From the NCBI RefSeq assembly GCF_900108065.1, contig NZ_FNVQ01000001.1, positions 868,001 to 932,000 of the forward strand: a stretch of DNA of 64,000 nucleotides, written 5' to 3'. Under the pieces are notes generated by a model that was given only the letters and a program-made list of their open reading frames with translations, searched no databases and was not told where the DNA came from. Below, piece after piece: positions 35,820-64,000 of this stretch. Each line of letters opens with the position of its first letter. The stretch's first letter is position 1. Origin of the DNA: Marinobacterium lutimaris. GTDB lineage: Bacteria > Pseudomonadota > Gammaproteobacteria > Pseudomonadales > Balneatricaceae. Both the position numbers and the translations under genes were made by a program.

Positions 35820-35820
35820 G

Positions 35821-37683: not shown

Positions 37684-37685
37684 AT

Positions 37686-41705: not shown

Positions 41706-41717
41706 ACCTCGGCCTCC

Positions 41718-43673: not shown

Positions 43674-46600
43674 AGCTCCCCCTCATCGAACAGCCCTTTG
43701 GTGATGATGGAAGAAGTAACCTTCGAGCGACGCCCGTGTTTACCCCTCTTTGCTGTGGGTATTTTGCTGCTTTTACTTGAAGCTTCTTCTATTCGTTTGC
43801 GATTAAGCGAAGATAGCCTTTCTAATAGGTCACTCACGACATCATCTGATAATGCCCACCGCCAAGGATCATTAGCTGAAGCACTATCAAACTCCCGAAA
43901 GTCGTACGCGACTTCAATGTCATTCCACCCATACGCGGCGATTAACTCAGTATCGATATCTGACATCAGTTGTCGCAGTTCAATGATTGTCGTATTGACC
44001 GAAGACGGCGAATGAATAGCGTTCATGATGTCAGTCAACCCAACATCGTTTGCAGAACTGAATTCAACGACCAAATCGTTGAACCGATTTGCGGCATTGA
44101 TTCCATCCTGGGAGACACTCTGCACTGGAACTGGATAACGGGAAAGTGACTTCGAAATAGAAATATTCAAGCCGGCTCCGAGTTTTCCACCGCTATAAAG
44201 CTCAATCCAAGCACGAAACCCAGAACTTAGCGTAATTGCATAAAGGTCCTTTCTGGTCATTCCGATCAAGAGAACCTTATTCGTGTAAATCCAACCGGAA
44301 GGGGCGAGCATGCCAACTGGGTGCTTGGTATTTTTGGAAAATCCGATGAATTTTTCACTCTGCCGTATTTTCCGCATCATGTCAGCTCGAGGTCTCCAGA
44401 ACTGCCACCAGCGATCAATCAACCCTTCGTAGCTTTTGAGAGTAGAGACCGTACGAGTTGGTCGCACCTCCTCCATGAGGAATCGGTAGGCAATAGGCCA
44501 ATGTCTGGCTACATCTTCCAAATCATGGTCGCCGATATCCAATGCCCATCGACCGATGCGATTTAGTGCCGAACCTGTAATATCATCTCCAGAAATGTAA
44601 GGGCGAAGAAGGCTATCTCGCTCTTGTTGGAGTTGCCCGAACCAGTGGCTATCGGGGGCGATAACGAAAGCTAAGCCCTTACTATTATTCACGCCCTCAA
44701 AAGCAAATAGTGCGTCGGGCAAGATTTGCGGTATCCAGACACCCGATGCCTCAGGCTCTAATCGCGGCCCAATACGAACACATTTGCGACTATCGGCAAT
44801 ACAATCAGCTCGCCATTCGCCTTTGATGAAACCAACGATGGCAACCACTACAGCTGCCTTTCCTGGCCAATGCATGCCTTTTTTTGCGAAATAAATGGTG
44901 CCACTCTGAACCACTACACCAAGACCTACCTCAATCGCACTACCCTCGGCGATATTACTAGTAGCAAGCAGGCCATAGCATCCTCCGCGTCTCAGGAGAT
45001 CAACAGCGCGTCGATGAAAGACTACGCACAAATCTACTTTCCCAGGAGAAGAACCCAGCACCATTTGACACTGCCATTGAAATTTATCGCCCATGGCGTT
45101 TTTCCACAGCCGGTTACCGAGAAATGGTGGGTTACCAACAACTGCGTCGAACCCACAGCGATTCCGGGAAAAAATCTCTGGAAATTCAAGAGGCCAGTGA
45201 AACGGCTTGCGCTGACGTTTATCAGCAGCCAAGTCTACTGACAAGCTCATCTGCGCTCGCCTATTGACGATTTCGATCGCATCACTCTCGCCATCAATGG
45301 CCAGTCCTGCCTGGATGGCAAGGGATGTAGTCGCATTATCCAAATCGCTACTGCTTCTCCCAGACGCGAAGACCTCCCCAATAAACGCGTCGGCGATGCG
45401 TTCGGGTACTTCGAGCTTGCGACGCACACTGGAATCAAGCCGTTCCATGGCGTGGACATCATAGATATCTCGGATCGGCATCTCGCGTAACTGCTGACGT
45501 AACTCAATCGCATCAAGAACTGCCTGCTCAATATTCTGACCGAACAAACATTTTTGTCCCTGATCCGAGGGATTCATTGAAAGCTGGGTCAGTTGGTCCA
45601 AGCGATGAATTCCCAACAAGCTGTCGCCACAGCGCAAGTTATGGTCGAGGAAGCCAAATGGACGTCCTTTGGCCAACGTCACCAGCCAGATGGAGAGCTT
45701 GGCGAGCTCGACCGCCAGAGGGTTCAGATCAATCCCATAAAGACAGCGCTCAGCTATGAGGCGGCGTGCTATCACCTTACGTGCTTCGCTGTCGCTGGGT
45801 AGAGGTTCTTTAACTATTTCAGCACCTAGAAGTTCACCATCCACACTCAACTGATGTCCATTATTCTCAGCCAGAGACCAGGACTCCTCTAAGCGATCCG
45901 CCAGCCAGCGGCATACCTGGACAAGAAAGGCTCCTGAACCCATTGCCGGGTCGCAAACCTTGAGATCCAGCAGTTCGGCAGGCGACTTCAACGTCCACTG
46001 TTCTCGTGGTTTCCCCTCTGCAGGCCCCACGTAAGCAATCGGTGTGAGTATCTCGGTGACGATTGTTTCCGTGAGCGATTTCGGGGTGTAGTGTGTACCC
46101 GTCTCACGGCGGTCGGAGCCGGTAGTGACGATAAACGCACGGGCCGGATAGACCAGCGGATAGCCCCATGGATCAGTGCGCAGCAGATGGGCATAGGGCC
46201 TGATGCGATCACGCAGTTTTGTGTCACCCAGACATGCGGTTAACAGGCGGTCAGCAAGGGTGTCGTCTATGGGTTTGACTAAAGCTGTTTTGATTTTGCT
46301 TGCTTTACTTCCTGAGCGTTCTTGCAGCAACTCAGCGAGTCTCTTTCCACCATCCAAACGTGCTGAATCCAGCTCAGCAAGCTTGACCCATGGTGTTTTG
46401 GCGTTCTTGGTTGCATCCAGCTCCAACGTGACTTCATCAGTGCGCTTGACGGTGCGCTCTAGCAAGCCTTCGTAGACATGGCCGATCTGTTCGACGTCTA
46501 GTGCGCGATAGGAAAGTGTGCGCCCTTGATATTGCTGAATGGCCTCCAGCAACAGCAGCACGGTGCGGTTGTCGATGGGTAACGGCTTGGCGGCATCGTG

Positions 46601-47743
46601 CCGCCAGTTCGAGCCCTTGTCCCGACCTTCGAGGAAAGGGAATCGATCCGGATCGAATAGTGACCCGCCCAGCGCCGGTAGTCGCAGATTTTCGTGCTCA
46701 ATGCCGCCAAACACCGCGCGGAAAATCGCTAGCAGACGCGACCAAGCATCCCAGCGGCGCTCCAAAATCTCCTCAGACTCCTTGCGCAACTGCATGCGCA
46801 AGGTAGAAAGCGCGTAGTTGGCCTCATAGCGCTCGTCGCCCATCAACAGCAGGCCGCGCTCCTCGGCAGAGAGCAGGAACACCAAGCGCATCATCACCGT
46901 CAGCGCGGCCTCATACAACTCGGGCTCCTTGACGTCGTGCAGGAGTTCTCGGCTGCGATCCTGGTCGGCTTTGTCGAGGGCTTGAATCAAGACTTCGACG
47001 GCGCGGCGAACCTGTTCGCCAAGCGCATCGGTAACTTCATCCTGAAATTTCAGGGAGCGATCAAACAGCGCAGGCAGTTGTTCAGATTCATCAACAAAGT
47101 AACGACGAATGCCGAGCAAGTGCACGAAGGCCTGCAGAGTGGTGGGCTCTTGGCTCCAGATTCGCGCATACCAACTCGCAAAGGTGGTCACCGCACCAAC
47201 AGGTGCATCCACTAGCATCCAGCGCTCACCATTGGTAACTAGCCCGAGGCGACACCCTACAGAGCGGCACAGCTGCACCATGCTATCTGCGGGTGTGGTG
47301 GCCCAGCGGTCTTGCTTTTGCGTGGCCTCCAGATCAACACTCTGAGGATAGGTCTGAATCATCAGCAGTGGCTTATTGGCACTCTGTTCATCAACAACGG
47401 CAAAATCGGGTATCAGTGTTACACCGTGTTCGGGCAAGCTTGCTTTTAGATTGGATGCGCACCAATCCGCACGTTTGAGCACGTCGCCTTTATCATCTTC
47501 ATCAAGATCAAGGCAACGCGATAGCACCTCATCAATCCAGGCAGCGTGTAACTCAGGGAACTGTGGGTCGTCCAACTCCTGTGCCTCATGCCATTCGTCA
47601 TAGGCTTGGCGCAGACGTTTGCGCTTGATGCCATCAAGCTCTTCCAGCCCTTGAGGAAAGGCCTCTTTCAGAACAGGAACCGCAAGGAAAGGACCAGAGA
47701 TTTCGATCAGCGATAGCCATTCGTGATGGTTGTCGTAACTCAT
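43670..47743 (-). CDS. drmMI: DISARM adenine methyltransferase DrmMI
   Basis: A 1,357-residue protein whose ATG overlaps the drmD stop (ATGA). The N-terminal third resembles the helical and nuclease-like lead region of Eco57I-type enzymes. The methyltransferase core has motif I DPAMGSGAFLVQV (D598), CLYGIDLNPLAVELAKLSIW, and motif IV NPPFLGN (N871), the N6-adenine (gamma/Eco57I) class. The C-terminal part is a target-recognition-like region with a basic tail. In class 1 DISARM this enzyme methylates host sites so that self DNA is spared. Its place directly after drmD is the class 1 order. The target sequence cannot be read from the gene. Confidence 0.9.
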   Translation of the reverse strand: MSYDNHHEWLSLIEISGPFLAVPVLKEAFPQGLEELDGIKRKRLRQAYDEWHEAQELDDPQFPELHAAWIDEVLSRCLDLDEDDKGDVLKRADWCASNLKASLPEHGVTLIPDFAVVDEQSANKPLLMIQTYPQSVDLEATQKQDRWATTPADSMVQLCRSVGCRLGLVTNGERWMLVDAPVGAVTTFASWYARIWSQEPTTLQAFVHLLGIRRYFVDESEQLPALFDRSLKFQDEVTDALGEQVRRAVEVLIQALDKADQDRSRELLHDVKEPELYEAALTVMMRLVFLLSAEERGLLLMGDERYEANYALSTLRMQLRKESEEILERRWDAWSRLLAIFRAVFGGIEHENLRLPALGGSLFDPDRFPFLEGRDKGSNWRHDAAKPLPIDNRTVLLLLEAIQQYQGRTLSYRALDVEQIGHVYEGLLERTVKRTDEVTLELDATKNAKTPWVKLAELDSARLDGGKRLAELLQERSGSKASKIKTALVKPIDDTLADRLLTACLGDTKLRDRIRPYAHLLRTDPWGYPLVYPARAFIVTTGSDRRETGTHYTPKSLTETIVTEILTPIAYVGPAEGKPREQWTLKSPAELLDLKVCDPAMGSGAFLVQVCRWLADRLEESWSLAENNGHQLSVDGELLGAEIVKEPLPSDSEARKVIARRLIAERCLYGIDLNPLAVELAKLSIWLVTLAKGRPFGFLDHNLRCGDSLLGIHRLDQLTQLSMNPSDQGQKCLFGQNIEQAVLDAIELRQQLREMPIRDIYDVHAMERLDSSVRRKLEVPERIADAFIGEVFASGRSSSDLDNATTSLAIQAGLAIDGESDAIEIVNRRAQMSLSVDLAADKRQRKPFHWPLEFPEIFSRNRCGFDAVVGNPPFLGNRLWKNAMGDKFQWQCQMVLGSSPGKVDLCVVFHRRAVDLLRRGGCYGLLATSNIAEGSAIEVGLGVVVQSGTIYFAKKGMHWPGKAAVVVAIVGFIKGEWRADCIADSRKCVRIGPRLEPEASGVWIPQILPDALFAFEGVNNSKGLAFVIAPDSHWFGQLQQERDSLLRPYISGDDITGSALNRIGRWALDIGDHDLEDVARHWPIAYRFLMEEVRPTRTVSTLKSYEGLIDRWWQFWRPRADMMRKIRQSEKFIGFSKNTKHPVGMLAPSGWIYTNKVLLIGMTRKDLYAITLSSGFRAWIELYSGGKLGAGLNISISKSLSRYPVPVQSVSQDGINAANRFNDLVVEFSSANDVGLTDIMNAIHSPSSVNTTIIELRQLMSDIDTELIAAYGWNDIEVAYDFREFDSASANDPWRWALSDDVVSDLLERLSSLNRKRIEEASSKSSKIPTAKRGKHGRRSKVTSSIITKGLFDEGEL

Positions 47744-50700
47744 GCGGCACCTCCCTGAGCAGAAGATTCTGGTACCAGAAAAATCACAGCAACCGGGAAA
47801 GTACGATCATTGAGTTTGGCGTAGCGGGTTTCGATGGCTTCAGCCTCCTGCTGGCGCTCAGATGGTATGCGAGCTAGACGCGCCTCCAATGCAGCGGTGT
47901 CTCGTCTGAGCTGAATTCGTTCGTCTTCCGTAAACAACGATAGCTGTGACGGCTCTTGGTCTTTTTTAAGCTCTGCCTCAATGGCGCGTTCAAGTTCATC
48001 CAGAACAGTATTGATATCTTCTACTTCTTGCTGCTTTCGTGACTGTAAAGTATTGGCCAGAAACTTAAGACGCTCTTTAGATCGAGCATCGACCGTTTGC
48101 AGGACCGCGTTTTGCGCGTGATCGAAACGCACTCGAATGGCATCAAGTAAAGAATCTGTAGCTGTAATTGGCTGGGCCTGATTCAGCCACTGCTGAACTT
48201 TGGTGACGCCTTCTTCTCGGCGGAAAGATTTGTCACCCAGGTAGCCACCAGCGTACGTCAGCTCTTCGTGAAGGCGATGATGGTTGCCACCAGTGACGAC
48301 TAGACGTGAGATGACGACCACAGCAGGGCCGTCGAGTAGACCATCTGGCACCGCTCGCACAGTGACACGATGCAACTTCTTAACATCGTCCTGCGCCCAG
48401 ACCTCGGCGCGGAGCAATCGCAGACACATCTGTACCAACCGGTGGTTCAGGTGAACCAGCACCACGTCGTCACGACCGGTAGCGACAGCGTGATCAAAGG
48501 TGATGGGTCGAATTTGCTGTGTATAAGGGTGGCGCAGCCCTTCAAGGCATCGAGCCCACGAACCCGACAAGGCGGGCATCTTGAAGACAGTACCCGCCGG
48601 GGCATCAGCCAATGCAAAGGGCTCAAGTGGCGGACGGCTTGCCAGCAAAAGACCTGTCTTCACCGCCATGAGGATGTGCTCTGGCGTAAGGTGGAAATCC
48701 TGCTGCGTGGTCAGGAGCCGCTCGTGCAGTTTGGCGACTCGATCTTTTAGCTGGCGCTCGGCACGCACAAACCGTCTGGCCTTGGCGATTTTGGCTTCCG
48801 CGAGGCGGGTGTCGAGGTCTTTGAGTGAACCCTCAATCAGCCCCGACATCTGCGGCGCGATAACTGGGTTGACGCTGCCCATGTCAGCCCGCATTGATTC
48901 GAGCTTGCGCAACGCGCGGATGATGTCGTCGCCGTGGCCGCCAATGGTGGCTTTGCCTGGTTCACCGCCATCGACGGGGTGCCAGATCAACACCTCCTTC
49001 TGACGCTGACCGTGTCGGTCGATACGACCGTTGCGCTGCTCCATCACATTAGGATTGTACGGTATCTCCAGGTGGATGAGGTAGTTACAGTAGTTCTGCA
49101 AGTCGATACCTTCAGATGCAGCATCAGTGGCTAACAGGATGCGCACCGCTGAATCCTTGGGAGCAGTTTGGAAGGCCGCTTTGACCTTCTCGCGGTCTTC
49201 CTGCTGCATGCCGCCATGAAGGATGGCTAGTCGATCACCACCGAAGCCGTGGCTGGCAAGGATCTCGTGCATCCACTGATGGGTGGTGCGGTATTCAGTG
49301 AATAAGATGACCCGGCGATCATTCCACTGACCATTAGACTTGAGATTAGACGTGAGCCAATCGAGGACTGACTTGGCTTTGGCATCGACCTGGTTCTTGG
49401 CTGTCTGTGCCCAAGAACGCAGTTCGTTCAGTATCTGTCGCTGCTCTACCGTCAGCGGTTGTACGTGACGTGAGGCCTCTTCGACGGCCTCGGACTGTGC
49501 GTTTTCGACCTCCTGATCATCAGCGTAATCCTCTTCGACTCGAAGAATGGCCTTGCGCAAAATGCGGTCGGCCATGCCATGTTTTTCCTTGCGAGGACTG
49601 CCATTGGTCAGGCTGTCGATGTGCTTCTCAAGCGTGGATGCGAATGCGGCAGGAGATGAGAATAAACGCTTCTTGAGCAATTGGTTTACGAACGTTGTAC
49701 CAAATGTAACACCGCTCTTTTCGGCATCCTTCTCACGGCTCTCGCAGTAATCGTTCAGCATTTGGTGAATGGCGCGCTCGTGTGCTGAATATGGTGCAGC
49801 CAGCGCTTGTAGCTTGCGCTGCGCATAAAGCGGCTTGCCTTCCGCATCTACTAGGTCGCTCTTGAGGCGACGAATCATCACCTGACTCAACTGCTTTTCA
49901 TCTGGCAGGATGTTTCGGGCGAACCGCTGGTCATCAAGTAACTCCAGCAGCGATGTGAAGGATTCGGTGTAACCGTTGTGGGGTGTGGCCGTCAGGAACA
50001 AACGATGCTGGAAGTGGGGGCTGATGGAACGAATGAAGCGCGTCCGCTGACTCTCGAGGGCGTAGTGTGCGCCGGCAGCAGGGGCGATATTGTGCGCCTC
50101 GTCGACGACGAGCATATCGAACTTGCGTGGATAATTGGTGTGCGCAGGGAGAACATCACGCATGGCACGCAATCCTTCACCGCTTTTAACCCAATCCATC
50201 GAGGCAATCAGCCTTGGATGTGATGTCCAAGGATTGGCGTGGATTCCACGCTCTCGACGCAACTGCTTGATATAGGCTGTATCGACGATACGAAAATCAA
50301 GGCCAAACTTCTCCAGCATTTCTACGCGCCACTTTTCTTGCAGTGATGCCGGGCAAATAATCAGGACGGTACGGGCACGGTGTCGCAGAAGCATCTCCTG
50401 AACGACTAGACCAGCCTCAATGGTCTTACCCAAGCCGACGTCATCAGCAATGAGTAGATTCACACGAGCCATATCAATGGCCCGCACTAGAGGGTCGAGC
50501 TGAAAATCCTCGATGCTGACGCCGCTGCGGAACGGCGCTTGCAGAAAGCCTCTGTCCGCATTGGTAGCGGCTCCCCAGCGTACTGCGTCAAGGAAGGCTT
50601 CTAGTGTATCTGAGTCATCCTGCCCGGTGATGGAAGGCAAACCCGCACGCTCGATGATTTGGGCACCAGGTTCAATTTCCCAAATGACCTCCAACTCTTC

Positions 50701-50880
50701 GCCAAGACCATCCTCATCTATGGATGAAAGCGTCACGTAGTGTTGTAAGGCTGAAGCTGATTCTAGTTTTGAGGAGGCGACGTCTGCGACGATCCATTGT
50801 CGCCGGCGAACTTCGACCAGTTGGCCCGGCTCTGGACGAGCGCTATAGGTATGGTTTTGCTGTTCGTTTGAAATTTCCAT
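47740..50880 (-). CDS. drmD: DISARM SNF2-type helicase DrmD
   Basis: A 1,046-residue protein with ATG at 50880; the ribosome binding site is weak (GAGAA only). SNF2 family motifs: DDVGLGKTIEAGLVV with the Walker A lysine at residue 152, VVDEAHNIAP (DEAH at 260-263), LTATPHNGYTESF as motif III, ATDAASEGIDLQ as motif V and QRNGRIDRHGQRQ as motif VI. A coiled-coil region lies near the C-terminus (about 930-1030). DrmD is the signature of class 1 DISARM, as opposed to drmE in class 2. It lies 48 bases after vsr and overlaps drmMI, so it heads the core DISARM block. Confidence 0.9.
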   Translation of the reverse strand: MEISNEQQNHTYSARPEPGQLVEVRRRQWIVADVASSKLESASALQHYVTLSSIDEDGLGEELEVIWEIEPGAQIIERAGLPSITGQDDSDTLEAFLDAVRWGAATNADRGFLQAPFRSGVSIEDFQLDPLVRAIDMARVNLLIADDVGLGKTIEAGLVVQEMLLRHRARTVLIICPASLQEKWRVEMLEKFGLDFRIVDTAYIKQLRRERGIHANPWTSHPRLIASMDWVKSGEGLRAMRDVLPAHTNYPRKFDMLVVDEAHNIAPAAGAHYALESQRTRFIRSISPHFQHRLFLTATPHNGYTESFTSLLELLDDQRFARNILPDEKQLSQVMIRRLKSDLVDAEGKPLYAQRKLQALAAPYSAHERAIHQMLNDYCESREKDAEKSGVTFGTTFVNQLLKKRLFSSPAAFASTLEKHIDSLTNGSPRKEKHGMADRILRKAILRVEEDYADDQEVENAQSEAVEEASRHVQPLTVEQRQILNELRSWAQTAKNQVDAKAKSVLDWLTSNLKSNGQWNDRRVILFTEYRTTHQWMHEILASHGFGGDRLAILHGGMQQEDREKVKAAFQTAPKDSAVRILLATDAASEGIDLQNYCNYLIHLEIPYNPNVMEQRNGRIDRHGQRQKEVLIWHPVDGGEPGKATIGGHGDDIIRALRKLESMRADMGSVNPVIAPQMSGLIEGSLKDLDTRLAEAKIAKARRFVRAERQLKDRVAKLHERLLTTQQDFHLTPEHILMAVKTGLLLASRPPLEPFALADAPAGTVFKMPALSGSWARCLEGLRHPYTQQIRPITFDHAVATGRDDVVLVHLNHRLVQMCLRLLRAEVWAQDDVKKLHRVTVRAVPDGLLDGPAVVVISRLVVTGGNHHRLHEELTYAGGYLGDKSFRREEGVTKVQQWLNQAQPITATDSLLDAIRVRFDHAQNAVLQTVDARSKERLKFLANTLQSRKQQEVEDINTVLDELERAIEAELKKDQEPSQLSLFTEDERIQLRRDTAALEARLARIPSERQQEAEAIETRYAKLNDRTFPVAVIFLVPESSAQGGAA

Positions 50881-52982: not shown

Positions 52983-55658
52983 TCAAACAGAAATTATTGC
53001 TGCAATTGCACGATAGGTTGGCACCCTAAACGGTAAATTTGCTGTCTTAATCCAATCATCAACGCAACTGAAGGCAAGACCCAGTTGGCTTTTCGCTGTT
53101 TCGTTTACAACGCTTAACTCGGCCGTGTCAGCGTCTACCAGCTCTATACCGTTAAGTCGTTCGAGAACCTTCCAATCTCGAATAACCTCACACTTTCCGG
53201 ATTTAAAGCATTCAGCACCTATGATCGATCGTCTTATATGCCCCGACTGATCAGTGATACTGTCCATTACCTGAAAAACGATTAAAGAGTGTTCAATGCT
53301 CTTACTGCCCGCCAAGCTCACTGGGTATTCAGCGGCCATCTTCAATGCTTTGTCGAATACTTTATGACCTACACCAAGAACCTTTTCAGCGTTGCCAGTC
53401 GGTACATTGCGATCAAAAACCATCTCATCGTACTTCCGCCGTATTCCTGGCTCATCAAGCCATTCTTCAGGCGTCTTGAAGGTTAGACCGTTATTTACCC
53501 GCGCCACCCGGCGCCGACAGGCTATCAACATAGCTTCAAAGAACGGCTGCAGGTGGGGCAAGTCGACATTGGGGACCTCTTTCAAACCGCTCAAATCGAA
53601 CTTGTCTGCATTACCCACCATGGATTTCACCGCATCGATGACTGACTCTCCTCCAAGCGTTTCTGTTTTTTCGTCAAACCATTGATCTAAACGCACGCCG
53701 TTTTGTAGCGCAGCATCACTAAAGACTTCGGTCAGGATGTTCGTTGACGACATCCCTAGCACGAGTTGGAGGAGATCCTCTGGGTCATCCATGGCAACAG
53801 ATAAGGCTGATGTAATGCGCTCCAGTTTGGCGTTTAAAAGATCCCATATTCGCGACTCCACCGTCTCTGGATTACGCAAAGTAATAACCTCAACCGGATG
53901 TTTCTGTCCGTATCGGTTCAGACGCCCAACCCGTTGATGAAGCCTCATCGGATTCCAGGGTAGATCGACATGAATTAGGGAGTGGCATCGGTGCTGCAGG
54001 TCGATGCCTTCACCACCAGCCTCAGTAGAGATCAGAAAACGCACTTTGCCACTGTTGAACAAGTCCGCCGCGTCTTCTCTCCGTATCCGCCGAGTAACTA
54101 ATGAACCGTCCGGCAACAGCAAGTCTTGAAGGCCCTCGTCTCCGTTGATGAAAGTAACGGAGTATTCTCCATATTGGTTCATCAACGCAGTCATGAGCAG
54201 CGATTGGGTTGCCTTGTACTCAGTGAAGAAAAGAACCTGTCGCTCCTTGTAAGGGCCCTCAAGCACATCAAGAATTTTTTCGATTTTTGTTTCAGACTCA
54301 ACTTGAGAAGCCGCTTGAACCAATGACTCAAGATTGGGGATCTCCTCCTCCATGAGGGTCAACGTTGCTTCCACCAGCATCAGGTCCAAATCACCTTCCT
54401 GATCAGCCAATAGAGATGAACTGTCTTCCGCAGCAGAAAGAGCTCTTTTGTCTATTGCCGATAATCTAATCGCCTCCTGCAGTTCTGTTCTTGTCTTAAT
54501 CAGTCGTCCTAAACGTCCCTGCAATGCCTTTCGAATAGCGGCAACTGAGCTAGACGCCAACTTCTGCATCGCGATGAGTACCAACATCACCTGCCTCCCT
54601 TCCTTGGCAGAAAGAGATGAAGCGTAAGCTTTACCGCCAGCGATGAATTCGGTCAAAAGCTTATAAAAATATTCCTCCTCGGGTTTATAACGGTATGTTT
54701 CAGAGCGCACCGAGACTGGCTTAAATAGCTTTTCCCCTTTCATGTTCGTAACAAGGCTTTTGTTGTTTCTGATCATCACCTCTTTCAGAGCTGCAATCTG
54801 CTTATGATCAGGCTGTTTTGGGTCAAAGAGGTCGGGTCTCAGCAGTTTCATAAGTGACCAAAACCCATAGGCCTTTCCACGGTGTGGGGTTCCCGAGAAG
54901 AACACACAAGATTCGACTTTCTTTTTCTCCAGCAGGTCTTCGACGAACTTGTAACCGAGAGTAGAGCCTGAGGACTCATCTGCGTTTAGGTGGTGAGCTT
55001 CATCGACGATTAGCAGATCCCAAGGTTCGGCATCCAGCATTCGATCGTGGCGACCATTTCGATCGGATCGTAGGGTGGGTAGCGAAGCAACAACCTGATG
55101 ATGAGTGTTCCAAAAATCTCCTTTATTACTGTCTAACTCTGTCGAATATCGAGATAGCCGGATGTCAAACATCTCACGAAGTCGATACTGCCATTGCTCG
55201 ACCAGCGATGCTGGGCATAAAACCAACAATCGACGAACCAGCCCTTTAGACAATAGGGGCCAGAGAATAAGCCCTGCTTCTATGGTTTTACCTAAGCCAA
55301 CATCGTCAGCTACCAAATACCGAACTGGCCACCTATGGGAGACTCGGTGGCATACCCATAACTGGTGAGGCAAAAGAGCAATTCGAGACCGCGAAAAAAC
55401 TCCCCAAGAATCATTAACAGATTGGATAGCCGCCGCTTGACACTTACTTACTACCTCCCGAATCGAGTGCCAGTCGTTTGAGCTAAGTGCTGATTCAAGT
55501 CCGACTAGTTTTTTAAGCACCTGTGCATCGCACTCCTCAAGCCCATGCTCAAAGCGCACAATAGCTGTCGTTCCCTTAGGAAACTCGATTACCCCGGGAC
55601 CAAACCGTTGATGAATGACTTCATCACCGGGGCTGAGAGGTGCCTGGTTCCTAGTCAT
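52983..55658 (-). CDS. RapA/SNF2-like helicase with N-terminal Tudor-like domain
   Basis: An 891-residue protein; the ATG at 55658 is three bases after the upstream stop and behind GGAGG. Residues 8-45 (SPGDEVIHQRFGPGVIEF, VRFEHGLEEC) resemble the Tudor-like domain at the C-terminus of UvrD/PcrA and in CarD-type proteins. The helicase core has ADDVGLGKTIEAGLIL (lysine 124), LIVDEAHHLN (DEAH at 219-222), FFSGTPHRGK, TEAGGEGIDLQ and HQRVGRLNRYGQ. This is SNF2/RapA type, distinct in sequence from the DrmD protein here. The C-terminal 250 residues are not recognised. It is coupled to the giant sacsin-like gene, so the two probably act together, most likely in defence. I do not know a named system with this pair. 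Confidence 0.8.
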   Translation of the reverse strand: MTRNQAPLSPGDEVIHQRFGPGVIEFPKGTTAIVRFEHGLEECDAQVLKKLVGLESALSSNDWHSIREVVSKCQAAAIQSVNDSWGVFSRSRIALLPHQLWVCHRVSHRWPVRYLVADDVGLGKTIEAGLILWPLLSKGLVRRLLVLCPASLVEQWQYRLREMFDIRLSRYSTELDSNKGDFWNTHHQVVASLPTLRSDRNGRHDRMLDAEPWDLLIVDEAHHLNADESSGSTLGYKFVEDLLEKKKVESCVFFSGTPHRGKAYGFWSLMKLLRPDLFDPKQPDHKQIAALKEVMIRNNKSLVTNMKGEKLFKPVSVRSETYRYKPEEEYFYKLLTEFIAGGKAYASSLSAKEGRQVMLVLIAMQKLASSSVAAIRKALQGRLGRLIKTRTELQEAIRLSAIDKRALSAAEDSSSLLADQEGDLDLMLVEATLTLMEEEIPNLESLVQAASQVESETKIEKILDVLEGPYKERQVLFFTEYKATQSLLMTALMNQYGEYSVTFINGDEGLQDLLLPDGSLVTRRIRREDAADLFNSGKVRFLISTEAGGEGIDLQHRCHSLIHVDLPWNPMRLHQRVGRLNRYGQKHPVEVITLRNPETVESRIWDLLNAKLERITSALSVAMDDPEDLLQLVLGMSSTNILTEVFSDAALQNGVRLDQWFDEKTETLGGESVIDAVKSMVGNADKFDLSGLKEVPNVDLPHLQPFFEAMLIACRRRVARVNNGLTFKTPEEWLDEPGIRRKYDEMVFDRNVPTGNAEKVLGVGHKVFDKALKMAAEYPVSLAGSKSIEHSLIVFQVMDSITDQSGHIRRSIIGAECFKSGKCEVIRDWKVLERLNGIELVDADTAELSVVNETAKSQLGLAFSCVDDWIKTANLPFRVPTYRAIAAIISV

Positions 55659-55661
55659 TTA

Positions 55662-58600
55662 TTAATCCTCCACTGACTTCAGTTCGCGCCCCAACAATTC
55701 TTGTTGTAGTTGCCAGTCCTCTGCAACGTGCCGTAGCGGGATGTCAAAGTCCCCGCAAAAACACGATTTTTCCTCACCAAGATACCCTACTAAAAAGGAC
55801 GATATTGTGGGTGAAGTCTTTAGCTGAGACTCAAACTCAGGTTCACTCCAGCCTAGCTCAGTTAACAGTTGTCTAACCTTTAGCGTTGGCACATAGGCGT
55901 GTTTCCTTAAGTACTGACTATCAATAAGGCCAAATCTAATCAGCTCTCGAACGACGAAATTCGCGCCAATCCCAAGGCTTCTTGCTAAAGCAGGTGCAGA
56001 AATTCCGCCCCCCTGCTGAGCGGAATCAGCCTTCGAGTTCAGCGTATTCGCCAAGTCAAAGTCAGCTGAATACCGTTCGAGTCCCACAAACAGTTCAGCA
56101 TAGTCTTCAAGATAGCGAGAAAGTTTGTAGATGATAGGGAAGCGAAGCATCCATTGCTCGTACTCCTGTTGATCAACTTGCTTATCTAGGTACTGGTCTA
56201 GGACCTTCATCCAGTCATCAAACCGTTGTGAGTGGTTGGGATCAGTGAACACATCCCACCATCCCTGTCGATAGCAGGTCTCAACAAATTGCCGGTGTTG
56301 AACAGACTTCGTCCTACCCATCGTATGGAAGCCACCCAGTAACAAAAGTGTTAGCCAAGATGAACGATCAATGCGGCCAAATTCATCTTCGTGCAAAATT
56401 AAAGTTCGTCCGTCGGGATAGGTATCACGGCCGTACTTTTCAAGCTTTTCTTCTCTAGCCTTCAACCACCACTTATGGATGTTTTGCAGGGCTTTCAATG
56501 GGTCGATAGGAACAGTCTCCGGGCGGGCGTCGGTTGTAAAATGTAGCCACGCTCCCCTACTTTGATCTGGGGTTTTCAATACCTGGTATACGAGCTTTGA
56601 ACGCTGCGTCTCACTCCAGCCATGTAAGTACGCCGATTCCTCATCTACTGCAGCTAACCAAGTCCCTCCTATACCAGACTTGAGTAGAGAGTCAGTTACT
56701 TCACGCGCCAACTCCCCTTCCACTAGGTAGTGGAGTGCGGCAATACGCTTATTGGTATCCTCTGCTAACAGCACCCACTCTCTAAGCTTTTCTGAAGGCG
56801 CGTCCATCTTGTCACGACACCAATAGAAAAACTCAACCCCACTTCCCTGGTATTCACCTCCTAATCGATAACGGCTGGGAGCAAAGCCCCAGCGAAGAGA
56901 CTCTTCGTCACTACCACCGCACGAAAGGAGCACTTTTGCTCTTTCTTCAGTTCCGCATTCAGAGATGAATTTCAATGAGTTTGCGTGAGAGGCCGCGGAC
57001 TTAAGATCAGCGATGTAGTCAGATGGGGTCTCTTCATTGCTCTGCTCCCATCGTTTAAAGACATTTTGATTGAAGGTGCCTCCCAGCAGTGCAGCGTCGT
57101 TAGCCACGATCGCTTTCTGATGGTCCAGTTTTGCAAACAGTGATGAAAGGCTCTCTGATTGCCACTGTGTTTTGCTAGAAGTAAATGCCGGGACAAGAAT
57201 CTTAAGCCATGTAGATACCTCAGAGGTCACAGCAGCCCGTGCATTTATTAGATCCTGAAAGCATCTAGCCTCTGACACTGCTTTTAATATTTCTGGGTCA
57301 TGCAATGCGCTTCTAAGTACAGTCTTGATCTCCGCGCTAGAAAGCAGTTGACTTAGGTGACCTCTAAGACCGTTGGGTATAAGCGCATGCTTACACGACA
57401 ACTCTTTCAATCCTTCGCAGAGCAACGCTTCAGCGATAATCCTAGTACCTGACTCACGCGGTAAACCAGGCAAACGCCCCATAAGAGTCTGCCAGAGTGA
57501 TGACCAAAAACTGTAAGGAGACGCAGAAGGCCCTAACTGCATTAGTTCTACTAGCGCATCCCAATGAATCTCTACTGCGGTTTTCAGCTCTCCAAGCGCT
57601 CGTGCTAACTGCCTACCTAGCTCTTGGGCCAGATGGGGGTTTTCGTTTAAAGAGGCTGATAACCGGGATCGACCGGCATCCACTTCAAACATCGCATTGA
57701 CCGCGAAGCCTAACCTCTCCTGCTCCCGAATAGGTGCGGTAACCCAAATACTGGGGATGTCTTTGGGCAATAGCATAAAGCCTTCTGGTCCAACTCCAAT
57801 CAACATAGCACCTGACGGGAGCGTTATTTTCATAATCAGAAGATCGGTTTTCTCATGGCGCATTCCTCCGATGCGTATAGTGTCACTTCCAGGAACCTTC
57901 TCCTCAGACCAACTTACAGAGAGCGGCGGACAAGCCTTGCGAACGATATCGATCCTTCGCAGATGTCTGGAAAACGCGACCATCACCCCCGCAACACCTG
58001 AAAAAGAGTCGAGTATCTCGTTTTCAGTAACTCCAACGAGTGGAAGCGCTATTGCAGTCCCGGGCCAGTGGCTATCTGGCAGTAATGACTTCATGCGCTG
58101 CCGCAAAGGTTTTACGTCTGTGCTTGATGCAGGAACTGGGAGTAGCCCCCCTACTATTTCGGTTTGCAATCGACCACTGACAAGCACAGGACGATTAGTC
58201 GCCAACCACACACTCTTGAACCCCAAACCAAACTTACCAGTTACATCATCAGTTTTGTCTGATGCAGACAGAATCAAGATATTCTCAAGGTCTCTATCGT
58301 AGCCGCGTTCTCGTCCAGGGAATCCGTTGTTCCCAAACTGATTAATAGCCCGTCCCCAATGCATAAACACCACACGGTGCCTATCAGCCTCAATACTGAA
58401 TCTACAGATCGAAGCAGGTAACGGTTCGACATCAAGCCCGCCAGGCTCAGAAGGGTATGCATCAATTAGTGCGAGGTGTTGGACGGCATCATCAGCGTTT
58501 TGAAATAACTCAAACGGTATGCTGCCCGCCTGATATTGGAAGTCCTGTATTTTGCGACGAACTGATTCAAGGATCGCCTCTTGTACACTGTTGTCAGTTT

Positions 58601-61600
58601 CTATTGTCCTTTGCAGTTCTTTGAGAGCGCCCTCTTTCTGTTTGCGATAACGATCCTCCTTTGAAGTCCCCTTATGTTCTTGCTCTTTCCGTTCTTCGTC
58701 ACGAAATCGATTTAATCCCGAGATCAAACTAGGGTGTTTGTGTGCCCCGAGCTGTTTTAGATAGAAAGGGATGTTGCGCAGAATTAACGAACGCGCAAGC
58801 TCAATATCTACTTGATCAGCAGTATCCAACTCGCCCCAAAGCCCATCAAGCCCCGCCCCTTTTTGTCCATAAACCTCTGTCAACAGGTAGGTCATTGATG
58901 ACTTAAGTAGATCGGAAAGCACTTTATCTGAGCATTGGTCTACATCGAGTTTTCGAAGTACCAAATCGACACGATAACCTCGGTTGCCGCCAAATGAGTA
59001 GTAACTTGGCTTCCCTATAAAGATTGAATCCAACTCCTTTTCCACTTCTACAGAAGCAGGCGTTCCAATGATCGAGCAGACTGTGAGCCTCTCCGTATCA
59101 TGGATACGGACAGTCATACTGAAGTAGTCTAATGCGCGCTCAAGAGTGAAACCGTTAAGCCAAGTGAGGGCACCGCCTTGATCTACTCCCTGCGCTATCC
59201 GCCATGGCAGCTTCTCTATCAACCACTCTCGAGAATGCTGCCCCAGTAGATCCTGACAAAATGATTTAACTGAATCTTCACCTCCACATAACAACACCAA
59301 AGCGCCGGTAAGTGCTGGCGCCACCCTCCCAGACCAATCCTGAAAATAATCTCTCAATATCCCTGCAGCAGCCGACGGCTCAGCAGCAACATCTGTTAAA
59401 CGAGAGGATTCAGTCGCGACGATAGAGTCGTTTCTATTCTCAAATAGGTGTCTAAGAATGTCAGCTTGTCGCTTATGTAAAACGTAAGGCTTAGCTATAC
59501 CAACGACATCACTAACCAGTTTTCCGCTTTCGGCCCAGTCCTCGTTTTTACTCAAAAGCTTTAGTCGGGGTAATTCACCTGCAGCCCCGTTGGAATCGGC
59601 AAATTGTTTAAGGTAGCGATTAAATGTGGAAACGGCCTCTTCGTCTGTAGCCCCTCTATCCGCAATCCAAATCAGTAATTTGGTGATTGCCTCCAATTGC
59701 ATCGGATGACGCATACTCGAAACCATTGGTAACAAGTCGATTTCCGGGCCCATGAGCCCATCCAGACTAGCCAGTACACGCCAACCCAGGTGCGGAGCGG
59801 AGGAAAGAGATCTGGCGACCGCAGCCACGTCAGCGCTGCTATTAAAGTTACTGTTACCTATCTGGTAATTTTCTAGGTCCTCGACGGCAAGTGCTAGCCG
59901 ATCAACTCCAGCTTGACCTATTGAAAAGTAGCCTTTACCAAATTCAGCAAAGAACGGGTGCTGTCGCAGTTCAATTTCAAGATGTTCAACGGTTACAAAA
60001 GCCCCAGGTGACTGAGCTAGTATCCGGCCCAAACCGACATCCCCATCGAAATCGATTACATCTTCTGGGCTAAACAGCGTTCCAGTTTCCGACGTTAACC
60101 ACCTTGTGCTTCTCAGCCGTTTTGCGACATTTAGGCTGAGCTCTTCCCCCTCTTGGGTAAGAGACTGGAGTCGATCTAGTATCTCTCGCCAAATACCAGG
60201 GCTTGATGGCTGCTCCAAAGCCAGCTCAATGAATGCTCCATGATCCAATATGGGCAACAACTTGTTTTGCCGTAAGCGGTTTTCCGCACGGTTGCTCGGC
60301 ACTATCAGCGTTACGCCGCTTAAGAGAAGCTCATCAAGCGCGTAATCATCAGGCACTTGAAATACATGACTCGACTGAGCCGAAACAGGCAGGTCGTCTA
60401 CAGTCCAATGAAATGGCAAGATGCGCCATAGTTCATCATCCTGGACTTCACTCAATATTTCTTCGCACTCTTCTTGATCGAATCCGTTGGGATCAATCGA
60501 TTGCACACCTCTCCTGATTAATTCCTCAATCACCGAGTCCGATCGAATTCCCTTGACACTGATAGTACGTAAAACCCCTCGTGATATATGGTCAGCTATC
60601 TCTTCTTGTACTAAATTCCATGGATCCTCATCCACCAATTGGGCCCATAACTTGAGCCATACCGGATGCTGATCGTCGCCCAGAATCCAGAGTGGATCTG
60701 ATGCATCAAAGTGAGTATCCCGTGCGTGGAGCAAATATCTCAGTCCTCTAACCGCTATCTGATCCGCTGGTTTTCCTAACTGACCAGCCAGCCTCATTCT
60801 TTCAGCAGAGTCGGCAAGCACCCTTGCCTTTAGCCCTAACGCGTGTAAAGCACGATGCCCATCACAGGGAGGCTGTGAGCGCTCTATACCGAGAGCAAGT
60901 TTTGAGGTGTCTGCGCTTATGATAAGAATTCGATCATGGGGAAGAACACGCTGTAACAGAGGAGCCAACGCTAGTCGATCATTAAGTTTGGTTCCTTGTG
61001 CATAGCCAAACAAAAGACCCTCTATACGTGCAGCATCTATCTCTTTAGGAGAAGCCGCTCGTACCCTATCTGCCTGGCAATCGTAGGAGCGCAAAACGTA
61101 AAGCTCTGAACAACGGCGCAATAACGATGACCTCGAATCCGGGGCTACACTCTTAATTAAAAGTTCTGCGATTTTAAGGGCGCCTTCGTAAAGTGCTTTT
61201 CCTGCTTTACTCTGAGGTGAAAGGGGTTGCTGTAATGCCTTCAATAGTGGGACAGCTTCGTCAACGGATACACCGGTATCCTGTTTCCATTCTCTGGGCC
61301 AAAAGCGAGTGGGAATGACCAAGATGTTGGAGCTGGCGCTGAGGAGCTCTTGGAGCAAAGTTACAGGGAGCTGATTGTCGACTGGTAAGCAACGACTCTG
61401 TTCTAAATAACTAACAACTTGTCGAACACGTGATTCATTTTGACCAAGCAAGGCCTCACCAACACTACTCAAACCTTCTCGAACAAGGCGTTCCAGCGAC
61501 TGTTTTACGGTTCCTATATTCAAAAATGGCCTAACTGTATCTCGTAAAAAAGTCAGGAAATAATCAAGTAGGGTTGTTTCTACAAATAGCGATTTTGCTT

Positions 61601-63281
61601 CTACAGAGCCGAGCAACTGATTGAGACTTTGCTCATCCCAATCAGTGTTTCGCTTTACGCTAAGTATATTCGGAGCACCATCGACCACTAGCAAAACTTG
61701 TTGGGCTAATTGGCTAAGCGATGGGAAGAGTCTCCAAGGTCGGCCAGAATCGGATTCTGGCGTCGAGGGCAACCGAAGTACTTTTTTATCATTGGGTTTA
61801 AGTACCCAACGAGCACCATCAACAGTGATTTCTCGAATCCAACTGTGGGATTGAGTGATCTCGTGACGGAACTGCTTAAATAGATCCGTTTCGGTTAGTG
61901 CCTGAGTGAGATTTGATTTAACCTTATCTGCTAGTTTGAGATCGGAGCAAAAGCTATTAAGTGCTGGCAGCACCAACGGTAATACCACTGACTGCAGCAG
62001 TTCATGATTCCAAGCTCTGCGAAGTGCTTCTTCGCTTTCAAATGAGTCTCGCTGATGCTCGTGCATCTCCTTCATTCCATGCACACCCTGCCGACCTGCA
62101 TCCACAAAGAAATAGCCATGGAGAGTTAATCTGAAGTCGAAGTTGCCATCACATCGAATAGTCTGGGATGCGCTATTTTCGTCTAGTGGCAAGAATACGG
62201 ACCAGTTGGTGATCAGCCGGCCCGAGCCCGGCGCTCGAGAGAAGAACACCGCCCCATGCGGTTGCGCTTTATCCTTGGCTTCTCTCGAGTGGCCCAACTC
62301 ATCCCGTATATAACTGCTTGGCCAAAGATCATGAGCATGCAGTGCGTTAAGCCTTGGGTTCCAGTCTAAATATTCGAGCCCGGTAAATTCTAACTTTGAC
62401 CGCCCATCACCTTTTTCCACCTGAGTCCGACCACTCAATATCTGAGGTGCCTCTCGCCTCCCACTTCGTTCTTCGGGTTCAGCTCCGATCAAAGAAGTCC
62501 GCCGTCCCCCCGCCGTTAACTGCACATCAAAGACTGGAGCAAGCTTTTCCTGGGCGTCATTTAACGTCCAAAAAGAGACTCTCTGGAGGTGCCTTAACAT
62601 AGGCATTAGAGCTGCGATTCGAATGCCCAGTTCGGCCTCGTACATGAAAGAGAGCAGATCTGTATCATCACCAGGGAATTCGGAAACAATCGCTCCGGTT
62701 TGCTCACCAAAGGGTTGTTTTAAGTGGGCCTTTTGCCGCAATGGCAACCAGAGAATAAAACATTGATCAGCTTCTGAGGAAAGCGAGGATGTTACTGCTT
62801 CCAAATGGTTTCGAATTAGCGCTGCGTCCTCAACACCAAAACTGTTCCAGTCAACATGGAGAGTCTGATCGGGATCCGGCCCACTCCAGGGGTTAAGGAT
62901 TTCCGAATATTCCCGCTCTCCATCATGAGCAAGGAAAAAAAACGCCTCACAAAAGTGGAAAACGCTTTTCATTCCCAGGCCGAACTTTCCAATACTTCCC
63001 TGGTCTGCGGCCTTTGAGTTCTGTCCGAAAGAACGAATACCACGCGCATCAGATGATTTAAATGCACCGTTGTTAATGAGGAAGATCCCTGGCCCCTTCA
63101 GCAAGGGATGAATTGCGCCGACCAAGCCTGGTGACAAGCCATAGTGAAGCTCCGTTGCAGGAGCATCGTCGCTATTCTGAATTAACTCCTTCAGTACCGG
63201 GAAACCAGTTTGATACCGATCACGCAAGTTGTCAGCGATCAGATTGATGAATTGAATCGGGTCTTGCGTGAATCCGAACAT
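55662..63281 (-). CDS. Giant sacsin-like protein with two HSP90-type ATPase modules (2,539 aa)
   Basis: The ATG at 63281 has GGGAG nine bases upstream. Two sacsin-type Bergerat ATPase modules are present. The first has N-box KELIQNSDDA (31-40) and G2 box IGKFGLGMKSVFHF (97-110). The second has ELFQNADDA (from E1591) and TGKFGLGFKSVW (from about 1681). The phrase QNSDDA/QNADDA plus GKFGLGxKSV is the sacsin and HSP90-like signature. About 1,100 residues between them and 700 after are mostly helical and not recognised; the tail has a winged-helix-like segment (ALARSLGIGANFVVRELIRFG). It overlaps functionally with the helicase gene three bases downstream. It may be an ATP-driven clamp or sensor in a defence complex; that role is inferred. 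Confidence 0.8.
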   Translation of the reverse strand: MFGFTQDPIQFINLIADNLRDRYQTGFPVLKELIQNSDDAPATELHYGLSPGLVGAIHPLLKGPGIFLINNGAFKSSDARGIRSFGQNSKAADQGSIGKFGLGMKSVFHFCEAFFFLAHDGEREYSEILNPWSGPDPDQTLHVDWNSFGVEDAALIRNHLEAVTSSLSSEADQCFILWLPLRQKAHLKQPFGEQTGAIVSEFPGDDTDLLSFMYEAELGIRIAALMPMLRHLQRVSFWTLNDAQEKLAPVFDVQLTAGGRRTSLIGAEPEERSGRREAPQILSGRTQVEKGDGRSKLEFTGLEYLDWNPRLNALHAHDLWPSSYIRDELGHSREAKDKAQPHGAVFFSRAPGSGRLITNWSVFLPLDENSASQTIRCDGNFDFRLTLHGYFFVDAGRQGVHGMKEMHEHQRDSFESEEALRRAWNHELLQSVVLPLVLPALNSFCSDLKLADKVKSNLTQALTETDLFKQFRHEITQSHSWIREITVDGARWVLKPNDKKVLRLPSTPESDSGRPWRLFPSLSQLAQQVLLVVDGAPNILSVKRNTDWDEQSLNQLLGSVEAKSLFVETTLLDYFLTFLRDTVRPFLNIGTVKQSLERLVREGLSSVGEALLGQNESRVRQVVSYLEQSRCLPVDNQLPVTLLQELLSASSNILVIPTRFWPREWKQDTGVSVDEAVPLLKALQQPLSPQSKAGKALYEGALKIAELLIKSVAPDSRSSLLRRCSELYVLRSYDCQADRVRAASPKEIDAARIEGLLFGYAQGTKLNDRLALAPLLQRVLPHDRILIISADTSKLALGIERSQPPCDGHRALHALGLKARVLADSAERMRLAGQLGKPADQIAVRGLRYLLHARDTHFDASDPLWILGDDQHPVWLKLWAQLVDEDPWNLVQEEIADHISRGVLRTISVKGIRSDSVIEELIRRGVQSIDPNGFDQEECEEILSEVQDDELWRILPFHWTVDDLPVSAQSSHVFQVPDDYALDELLLSGVTLIVPSNRAENRLRQNKLLPILDHGAFIELALEQPSSPGIWREILDRLQSLTQEGEELSLNVAKRLRSTRWLTSETGTLFSPEDVIDFDGDVGLGRILAQSPGAFVTVEHLEIELRQHPFFAEFGKGYFSIGQAGVDRLALAVEDLENYQIGNSNFNSSADVAAVARSLSSAPHLGWRVLASLDGLMGPEIDLLPMVSSMRHPMQLEAITKLLIWIADRGATDEEAVSTFNRYLKQFADSNGAAGELPRLKLLSKNEDWAESGKLVSDVVGIAKPYVLHKRQADILRHLFENRNDSIVATESSRLTDVAAEPSAAAGILRDYFQDWSGRVAPALTGALVLLCGGEDSVKSFCQDLLGQHSREWLIEKLPWRIAQGVDQGGALTWLNGFTLERALDYFSMTVRIHDTERLTVCSIIGTPASVEVEKELDSIFIGKPSYYSFGGNRGYRVDLVLRKLDVDQCSDKVLSDLLKSSMTYLLTEVYGQKGAGLDGLWGELDTADQVDIELARSLILRNIPFYLKQLGAHKHPSLISGLNRFRDEERKEQEHKGTSKEDRYRKQKEGALKELQRTIETDNSVQEAILESVRRKIQDFQYQAGSIPFELFQNADDAVQHLALIDAYPSEPGGLDVEPLPASICRFSIEADRHRVVFMHWGRAINQFGNNGFPGRERGYDRDLENILILSASDKTDDVTGKFGLGFKSVWLATNRPVLVSGRLQTEIVGGLLPVPASSTDVKPLRQRMKSLLPDSHWPGTAIALPLVGVTENEILDSFSGVAGVMVAFSRHLRRIDIVRKACPPLSVSWSEEKVPGSDTIRIGGMRHEKTDLLIMKITLPSGAMLIGVGPEGFMLLPKDIPSIWVTAPIREQERLGFAVNAMFEVDAGRSRLSASLNENPHLAQELGRQLARALGELKTAVEIHWDALVELMQLGPSASPYSFWSSLWQTLMGRLPGLPRESGTRIIAEALLCEGLKELSCKHALIPNGLRGHLSQLLSSAEIKTVLRSALHDPEILKAVSEARCFQDLINARAAVTSEVSTWLKILVPAFTSSKTQWQSESLSSLFAKLDHQKAIVANDAALLGGTFNQNVFKRWEQSNEETPSDYIADLKSAASHANSLKFISECGTEERAKVLLSCGGSDEESLRWGFAPSRYRLGGEYQGSGVEFFYWCRDKMDAPSEKLREWVLLAEDTNKRIAALHYLVEGELAREVTDSLLKSGIGGTWLAAVDEESAYLHGWSETQRSKLVYQVLKTPDQSRGAWLHFTTDARPETVPIDPLKALQNIHKWWLKAREEKLEKYGRDTYPDGRTLILHEDEFGRIDRSSWLTLLLLGGFHTMGRTKSVQHRQFVETCYRQGWWDVFTDPNHSQRFDDWMKVLDQYLDKQVDQQEYEQWMLRFPIIYKLSRYLEDYAELFVGLERYSADFDLANTLNSKADSAQQGGGISAPALARSLGIGANFVVRELIRFGLIDSQYLRKHAYVPTLKVRQLLTELGWSEPEFESQLKTSPTISSFLVGYLGEEKSCFCGDFDIPLRHVAEDWQLQQELLGRELKSVED

Positions 63282-63362
63282 CTATAACTTCTCCCTGTAT
63301 GCTAGATGCTAGCAAACTTGTCTTTCTTTATCTCAGGTGCCAACTGTAAGAAATACCGCAGC

Positions 63363-64000
63363 CTATCCGTTCACATAGTCATTCCAACCGGTCTCCAAAA
63401 GATCATCAGCAACCTCACCGATACTAGGTGAAGCGTTACCAGGTTTTGCAAGCCAAGAAAGGAACGCTGCAACCTCATCATCTTTAATTGTGTTGACGTC
63501 CCGCCATCGGTTAACTACTTGGCGAGGTAAAACAAAAATTCCGTTATGCCAGCTCATGCTGTTACCAATATGAGTCCACATGAGATTGGCAGCATAAGCA
63601 CAGATCAGCCCTTCTTTGCCATCACCGCTTCGGCACACCATCGCTCGATAGCTGGCTAACAATGCACTACTGCCTCTTTTGAGGGGGTATTTTTGATTGG
63701 GAGCAGCATGTGAGAAGATCTCATTTTCATCAAGTTGCGGTAATGATGCCCCTGCACTCGGTAATAGAGGTTTATTATCCTGCAGACTGTCTTCCGATTG
63801 ACTGACATTTTGATGACTCGCGTAAGCGGCTTTTGCTGCTCGAAGAACTGCGGAATCTACTTCTGCTGCATCTAGCCAAATCTCCCAAGCCCAATTCCTT
63901 ACCGAACAATAGGCGTCTGATCCCTCGGGAATAAAAGTACCAGCTTCCAGGTTGCCTTCTTCGTCGTTTATACAAAGACCATTAGTGGAGAAGTTAGCAG
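63363..64000 (-). CDS. Unrecognised protein, C-terminal part (partial)
   Basis: The reading frame is open from the window edge at 64000 to the TAA/TAG-type stop at 63363, giving at least 212 residues; the start lies outside. Apparent internal starts give a shorter protein but are probably not real, because the upstream frame stays open with sensible composition. Visible features are a Trp-rich helix (VRNWAWEIWLDAAEVDSA), a low-complexity acidic linker, and a C-terminal domain with YRAMVCRSGDGKEG and a final LETGWNDYVNG. I do not recognise the family. It precedes the sacsin-like gene by 81 bases on the same strand and is probably in its operon. Confidence 0.55.
   Translation of the reverse strand, partial: ANFSTNGLCINDEEGNLEAGTFIPEGSDAYCSVRNWAWEIWLDAAEVDSAVLRAAKAAYASHQNVSQSEDSLQDNKPLLPSAGASLPQLDENEIFSHAAPNQKYPLKRGSSALLASYRAMVCRSGDGKEGLICAYAANLMWTHIGNSMSWHNGIFVLPRQVVNRWRDVNTIKDDEVAAFLSWLAKPGNASPSIGEVADDLLETGWNDYVNG

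Follow-up and report, generated by a model that had tools for sequence, protein, structure and literature searches.

A 64,000-nucleotide (nt) stretch of the Marinobacterium lutimaris genome (contig NZ_FNVQ01000001.1, positions 868,001 to 932,000; "the window" hereafter denotes this whole stretch) contains two adjacent genes that apparently form a conserved, unnamed two-gene module. The first gene, here called SAC (55662..63281, minus strand), encodes a double-sacsin GHKL ATPase of 2,539 amino acids (aa), as judged from the open reading frame (ORF), Pfam and PDB matches and AlphaFold models. The second gene, HEL (52983..55658, minus strand), encodes an 891-aa RapA-like SNF2 helicase, which is apparent from the ORF, from Pfam, from a PDB sequence match and from its assignment to the PADLOC 'DrmD' family PDLC02634. 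We consider it reasonably likely, with a probability of roughly 0.6, that a single mobile anti-invader module has SAC and HEL as its two core components and stands alone, independently of DISARM. This reading is based on the adjacency of the genes across phyla, their correlated divergence, their defence-related surroundings, the intact ATPase sites and motor, and the lack of a recurrent third gene. From this context SAC-HEL is probably defensive, and we infer an anti-phage activity and a physical complex of the two proteins.

Co-occurrence and joint divergence of SAC and HEL

In the window both genes are intact and run in the same direction, SAC first, with a gap of 3 nt, as had been stated in a first-pass annotation made from the sequence alone. 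The arrangement would fit translational coupling, because a GGAGG motif lies within the final SAC codons, 8 nt ahead of the HEL ATG.

The frequency of the pair in other genomes, a check proposed in that annotation, was determined by a profile scan of 84,980 species genomes. At least 74 loci with a SAC match were found, and this is a lower bound since the scan used two peptide patterns. Of the 74 loci, 24 were dropped from the pairing count, either because SAC added up to fewer than 2,300 aa or because the downstream sequence was shorter than 2.7 kb. A HEL orthologue was called if a protein encoded downstream on the same strand gave more than 400 bits in blastp. By this measure HEL follows SAC in 46 of the 50 eligible genome loci, i.e. 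far above chance, and the gap is at most 100 nt in 43 of the 46. Nine pairs overlap by 4 nt, and the three widest gaps are 677-819 nt. According to the record labels, the paired loci belong to Gamma- and Betaproteobacteria, Desulfobacterota-type lineages, Planctomycetota, Chloroflexota, Vicinamibacteria, Neomarinimicrobiota, Kiritimatiellia, Bacteroidales, Cyanobacteria and a Bacillota metagenome-assembled genome (MAG). Two divergent copies of the pair are present in Thiocystis minor (L019 and L035) as well as in Caballeronia megalochromosomata (L028 and L036).

Close to home the distribution is sparse. When 293 genomes of the order and 398 genomes of the phylum were sampled, a strong SAC match was seen only in the window's own genome; the order sample gave three additional weak matches, limited to the GHKL part. 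HEL was represented in the phylum sample by its own copy and by two paralogues at 33% identity. In such genome searches two candidates per genome were scored as a rule.

SAC is also found on plasmids (7 records), and here adjacency to HEL was seen in two Deinococcus, one Sphingomonas and two Trichormus records, the second Trichormus by match coordinates alone. A plasmid search with HEL at 1e-60 gave 13 records: five at 45-54% identity, all of them beside SAC, and eight at 29-34% identity. A Haematobacter plasmid (L009:2168-16294) has no HEL but encodes a divergent sacsin protein of 2,103 aa. It lies behind a protein of 1,405 aa with a weak match to SACS and a TM0106-type RecB-like nuclease; these genes are possibly a separate sacsin-based system. 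A phage-borne system was considered and rejected, as a search of 50,697 phage records gave no match to SAC. Of three loci on viral contigs only one (L088) carries the pair, which there adjoins a relative of the integrase of the window's mobile element (described in the last section) and lies near a member of a protein cluster to which a type I restriction subunit also belongs.

The evolutionary distances of SAC and HEL were compared by the mirror-tree approach on 44 pairs. The correlation (r = 0.778) is well above the maximum of 1,000 permutations (0.244). Shared descent contributes to such a value, so we take it as a sign of joint inheritance or joint transfer and not of contact between the proteins. 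In a tree of 64 helicases the 51 pair helicases form one clade (support 0.77), separate from the helicase of the window's DISARM operon and from other neighbouring helicases. The only extra leaf in the clade comes from a fragmented MAG contig (L084) that also bears the start of a SAC gene.

ATPase sites of SAC and the motor of HEL

SAC matches the Pfam family SACS (PF25794) with 97.3 bits in two stretches. The first sacsin/Hsp90-type ATPase domain comprises residues 19-246 (62544..63227, minus strand), as delimited by the best SACS stretch and by the Foldseek match to 5v44, and the second unit comprises, by our own delimitation, about residues 1568-1875 (57657..58580, minus strand). No other Pfam domain was detected at 1e-3, and no DnaJ, HEPN or ubiquitin-like domain was found. 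The first-pass annotation had described two complete ATPase signatures in this 2,539-residue protein, and the N-box and G-box motifs are indeed located where it had placed them, i.e. E32, N36, D39 and G98-K105 in the first site and E1591, N1595, D1598 and G1682-K1689 in the second. A putative catalytic arginine, R397, is located C-terminal of the first ATPase domain, and the second unit includes R1871. In human sacsin the arginine at the corresponding place was proposed to be the equivalent of Hsp90 R380 (PMC9880540, available excerpt), and R397 and R1871 would accordingly be equated with sacsin R474 and Hsp90 R380.

The conservation of these residues was investigated separately for the two parts of the protein, excluding rows that cover less than 85% of the respective part (two of 43 in the first part, none in the second) and also two plasmid rows. 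All 40 rows of the first-part alignment share E32, N36, D39, the G-box and R397, and all 42 rows of the second share E1591, N1595, D1598, the G-box and R1871. In the full alignment of 44 SAC rows the conservation of E32, N36 and D39 is 0.98, and that of R397 is 1.00. Outside the ATP sites there is an invariant R-x3-H at residues 848 and 852 (window 60726-60740).

By sequence, the nearest solved structure is the SR1 domain of sacsin (9e-12). AlphaFold models of residues 1-1200 and 1340-2539 have a mean pLDDT (predicted local distance difference test) of 85.5 and 85.1, respectively. With the first model Foldseek finds sacsin SR1 (5v44, E 7.5e-9) and also Hsp90, GyrB, MORC2 and SMCHD1; with the second it finds chains of the Hsp90 family (best E 2e-7). 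The TM-scores of the whole part models are low because the ATPase part alone matches, and the placement of the domains is uncertain (predicted TM-score 0.57-0.58). The second ATPase unit aligns with the first domain in hhalign (97%). A duplication of the entire SAC was rejected, since the hhalign comparison of the two 1,200-aa parts aligns the ATPase cores only (residues 10-112 with 1569-1696).

SAC is not always a single gene. It is divided near residue 800-1000 in L051 and in five loci from cyanobacteria, of which one is a plasmid, and near residue 1600-1850 in L010, L029, L035 and L062; some of the latter breaks may be frameshifts. In the cyanobacterial loci L057, L064 and L070, which have the break near residue 800-1000, the match reaches to about residue 2200. 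A 73-aa SAC piece in L032 may be a start artefact.

HEL contains the Pfam domains SNF2 and Helicase_C, and its closest PDB entry by sequence is RapA (7e-36). The Walker A and B residues (K124, D219-E220) and the motif VI arginines (R576/R579) are identical in 51 of 51 rows. The PADLOC models of BrxHI and BrxHII match HEL too. No nuclease domain was found by Pfam in either SAC or HEL.

Defence surroundings, possible mechanism and alternatives

The surroundings of the 46 genome pairs were characterized by up to two genes per side, each of at least 150 aa, which gave 161 genes (92 + 69). The 92 flanking genes matched 366 PADLOC families at 1e-10 and the other 69 matched 191, as compared to 16 families matched by 92 control genes that were taken from 15 hand-placed stretches in eight genomes of the window's order. 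The contrast is strong, yet it does not amount to a calibrated enrichment, because families and not genes were counted and because the genes of the control are shorter. Vicinity to defence genes, the other check put forward in the first-pass annotation, thus speaks for the pair at the level of this rough control. In each of ten loci we also looked at one gene, hand-picked by size from the two closest to the pair on its upstream side. Eight of these ten genes are known or candidate defence genes, i.e. GajB, PDC-S68, HsdR (twice), Argonaute (twice), HmaC and BrxL, so that pairs adjoin Gabija, type I restriction-modification (RM), Argonaute, Hma and BREX. This variety suggests that the pair forms a unit of its own instead of belonging to any particular neighbour as a subunit. 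A third obligate gene was rejected, as in an all-against-all blastp of the neighbours no family besides SAC and HEL occurred in more than six loci.

The module is most likely an ATP-gated clamp combined with a double-stranded DNA translocase, i.e. a variation on the MORC/GHKL–SNF2 theme. The two GHKL sites would open and close a large SAC clamp, as in GyrB, MORC and Hsp90, and the clamp may check or encircle the invading DNA or a complex of DNA and phage protein. It would then license HEL, an SNF2 motor translocating on the double-stranded DNA of the invader, which could strip or stall the phage replication or transcription machinery. As no conserved nuclease was found, the output would likely be a physical block or remodelling of the invader DNA, or a hand-off to resident nucleases, and not self-contained restriction. 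A more specific proposal can be formulated as a nuclease-free immune system, in which two non-equivalent Hsp90-type gates in one chain act as an ATP-clocked clamp on invader DNA or on a replication complex and drive a dedicated RapA-type translocase. We regard this proposal as tentative and its chances as slightly less than even.

No sacsin-SNF2 pair was seen in titles or abstracts among the matches listed in the open-licence literature, and the closest printed idea that we found is that of the MORC/paraMORC-SFII helicase operons (Iyer 2008, PMC2292703). In the available excerpt of that work, GHKL proteins of the MORC/paraMORC type share RM operons with SNF2 helicases, Vsr and methylases, and GHKL-driven DNA looping is proposed for them. 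SAC-HEL shares with these operons a GHKL ATPase with intact motifs and a putative catalytic arginine downstream, an operon with a SWI2/SNF2 helicase and the mobile setting; in the window, Vsr and a C5 methylase are encoded directly downstream of the pair and a phospholipase D (PLD)-like protein directly upstream. One could therefore imagine a MORC/paraMORC-type, ATP-dependent restriction system that borrows its nuclease from changing neighbours, e.g. the PLD gene and Vsr. However, no neighbour family recurs in more than six loci, blastp at 1e-4 gives no relative of the PLD protein in the other fetched loci, and Pfam at 1e-3 gives SAC nothing but the SACS domain. SAC moreover differs from the MORC/paraMORC proteins in being sacsin-type, in having two ATPase units and in its size of 2,500 aa, and no conserved nuclease or methylase was found. 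In a comparison by eye with the MORC signature GhXhhpXXRhl, residues 389-397 of SAC fit GhXhhpXXR, whereas residues 398-399 are not hl. We consider the restriction alternative unlikely.

The relation to DISARM was treated separately, since the first-pass annotation had pointed out that the pair sits beside such a system. The DISARM operon is real (35058..50880, minus strand, outside the module) and encodes DrmC, DrmB, DrmA (37686-41705), a REase_II-like ORF, DrmMI and a 1,046-aa SNF2 helicase. The top label of this helicase is 'DrmA' (PDLC02572, 1751 bits), with 'DrmD' (PDLC02621) at 1554 bits; our reading is DrmD, given that DrmA is encoded separately in the operon. HEL, in turn, is covered end to end by the PADLOC 'DrmD' model PDLC02634 (1036 bits), and so are seven of seven HEL relatives tested (759-1051 bits), two Deinococcus pairs among them. 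Taken together with the adjoining operon, this label could mean that the pair is a DISARM accessory, with HEL as an alternative DrmD and SAC as an extra subunit. In the same direction, blastp finds relatives of DrmA, DrmB or DrmC of the window near three of the 51 pairs (L005, L016 and L047), a 136-aa DrmB-like ORF or fragment is present in L006, and DrmB was found in 4 of 26 pair-bearing genomes, beside the pair in two. The 26 genomes were hand-chosen from those of the 46 genome pairs and searched at E 1e-10, and the remaining 22, some of them incomplete MAGs, gave no DrmB match. For this reason we rejected the accessory role as the main explanation and give it only a slim chance. The DISARM of the window is already equipped with an SNF2 helicase of its own, the partner of HEL is SAC and not the drmA/drmB/drmC core that DISARM requires, and the fetched flanks of the two Deinococcus pairs contain no annotated DISARM gene, the fragment in L006 being the sole DISARM trace near them. 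In other words, the neighbouring operon looks incidental. PDLC02634 thus appears to hold the helicase of a system other than DISARM. The earlier statement that no catalogued system could be named is true of SAC, which has only local matches to TmtA, and not of HEL, which by itself matches a catalogued model. The refuting observations that the first-pass annotation had named did not overturn its proposal of a defence module.

Sacsin and Hsp90 function as chaperones, and RapA in the recycling of RNA polymerase. A machine for proteostasis or DNA repair that simply rides on islands, i.e. a bacterial sacsin chaperone with a RapA-like polymerase recycler, would agree with the sequence matches of both proteins and the fold matches of SAC, and with the chaperone action of sacsin (PMC3710099, available excerpt), but is quite improbable given the patchy distribution, the mobile context and the defence neighbours, none of which suggests housekeeping.

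Other known systems resemble the module in part. Like the repeats (SIRPT) of human sacsin, SAC has an Hsp90-like ATPase domain with the SACS signature and, after it, a middle-like region that contains a conserved arginine (5v44; PMC9880540, available excerpt), but it has two such units instead of three, lacks recognizable DnaJ and HEPN domains and has a DNA motor as partner. VcSduA, a GHKL-Shedu nuclease, also has a GHKL ATPase, which is proposed to act as the gate of a clamp in anti-phage defence; in contrast to SAC-HEL it carries its own PD-(D/E)xK nuclease, and no helicase is mentioned in the available excerpt (PMC12137116). HEL has the SNF2 core in common with RapA and BrxHII (PMC12839542, available excerpt) but belongs to its own clade, in which the close relatives are located beside SAC. 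HATPase is among the domains of the systems predicted by DefensePredictor according to the legend of a figure (PMC13092281); SAC-HEL may or may not be one of these systems. The local similarity of SAC to Tiamat TmtA is confined to the GHKL part (best 7e-27, SAC residues 20-114, PADLOC) and covers only about 70-100 of 1,300-1,650 profile positions, so that there is no full-length similarity. TmtA is not known to have an obligate helicase partner.

Several observations weigh against a stand-alone anti-invader module. Four of the 50 eligible SAC loci lack an intact HEL (the cyanobacterial L057, L064 and L070, and L085), even if a HEL remnant is kept just downstream of SAC in L070, and HEL is also missing from two of the seven SAC-bearing plasmid records (Synechocystis, in which SAC is broken, and Haematobacter). 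SAC is rare, i.e. it occurs in one of the 398 genomes of the phylum sample, the window's own. The neighbour control comes from other genomes and consists of shorter genes (36,108 vs 47,801 residues for an equal-sized set), and two of the ten picked upstream neighbours have no PADLOC match. PADLOC files HEL as a DISARM protein. Finally, no recognizable effector nuclease was found for SAC-HEL, which leaves a restriction-like action unsupported.

If SAC-HEL is nevertheless a defence module of its own, a defence system of about ten bacterial phyla (as labelled in the records) is at present partly filed under DISARM, and surveys that use PDLC02634 may mislabel it and miss the 2,500-aa partner. Bacterial sacsin-type proteins would gain a testable function; SAC would, as far as the literature was searched, be the first of them with a defined partner, PDLC02634 being the hidden half. 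The Hsp90/MORC-like ATP clamps of immunity would then extend to proteins with two gates per chain and no nuclease of their own.

The tRNA-Leu element in the window

SAC-HEL is located inside a 51-kb region between a left, 20-bp att-like repeat (29506..29525) and a tRNA-Leu gene, the 3' end of which is identical to the repeat (L011:17623-17642; 20/20, E 2.5e-5). The tRNA-Leu gene is adjoined by a tyrosine integrase, which was named by our own reading of the sequence and not from a profile match. The region also encodes a Gp3-like recombination directionality factor, YqaJ, DUF932 and RadC proteins, and, besides SAC-HEL, the DISARM operon, the C5 methylase with Vsr, the PLD gene, a Wadjet-like SMC operon and a WYL protein. 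Our preferred interpretation of the element is a mobile defence island that has integrated here. The genomic island suspected in the first-pass annotation is supported by the repeats at tRNA-Leu, the integrase and the directionality factor.

The same annotation had mentioned a partial gene of no known kind upstream of SAC in the same direction. Such a gene is present, its 3' part being at 63363..63998 (minus strand), but it is complete in the host contig (L011:363-1304) and codes for a PLD-like protein of 313 aa, which we regard as accessory. The protein has one phospholipase-D-like HKD motif by our own reading, a PLDc_2 match in Pfam that is below the family cut-off (6e-4) and a weak PADLOC match to DrmC (1.4e-5).

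Within the DISARM operon, a 651-aa REase_II-like gene (41718-43673, minus strand) lies between DrmMI and DrmA. The Wadjet-like SMC operon (L011:1953-8379, minus strand) codes for a DUF3584 protein of 1,230 aa, an MksE-like protein of 212 aa (a sub-threshold match), a 410-aa protein and a DUF7281 protein, and none of the four has a PADLOC match at 1e-3. Just outside the left repeat a single ORF of 9,278 aa extends over positions 1270-29106 of the window (minus strand).

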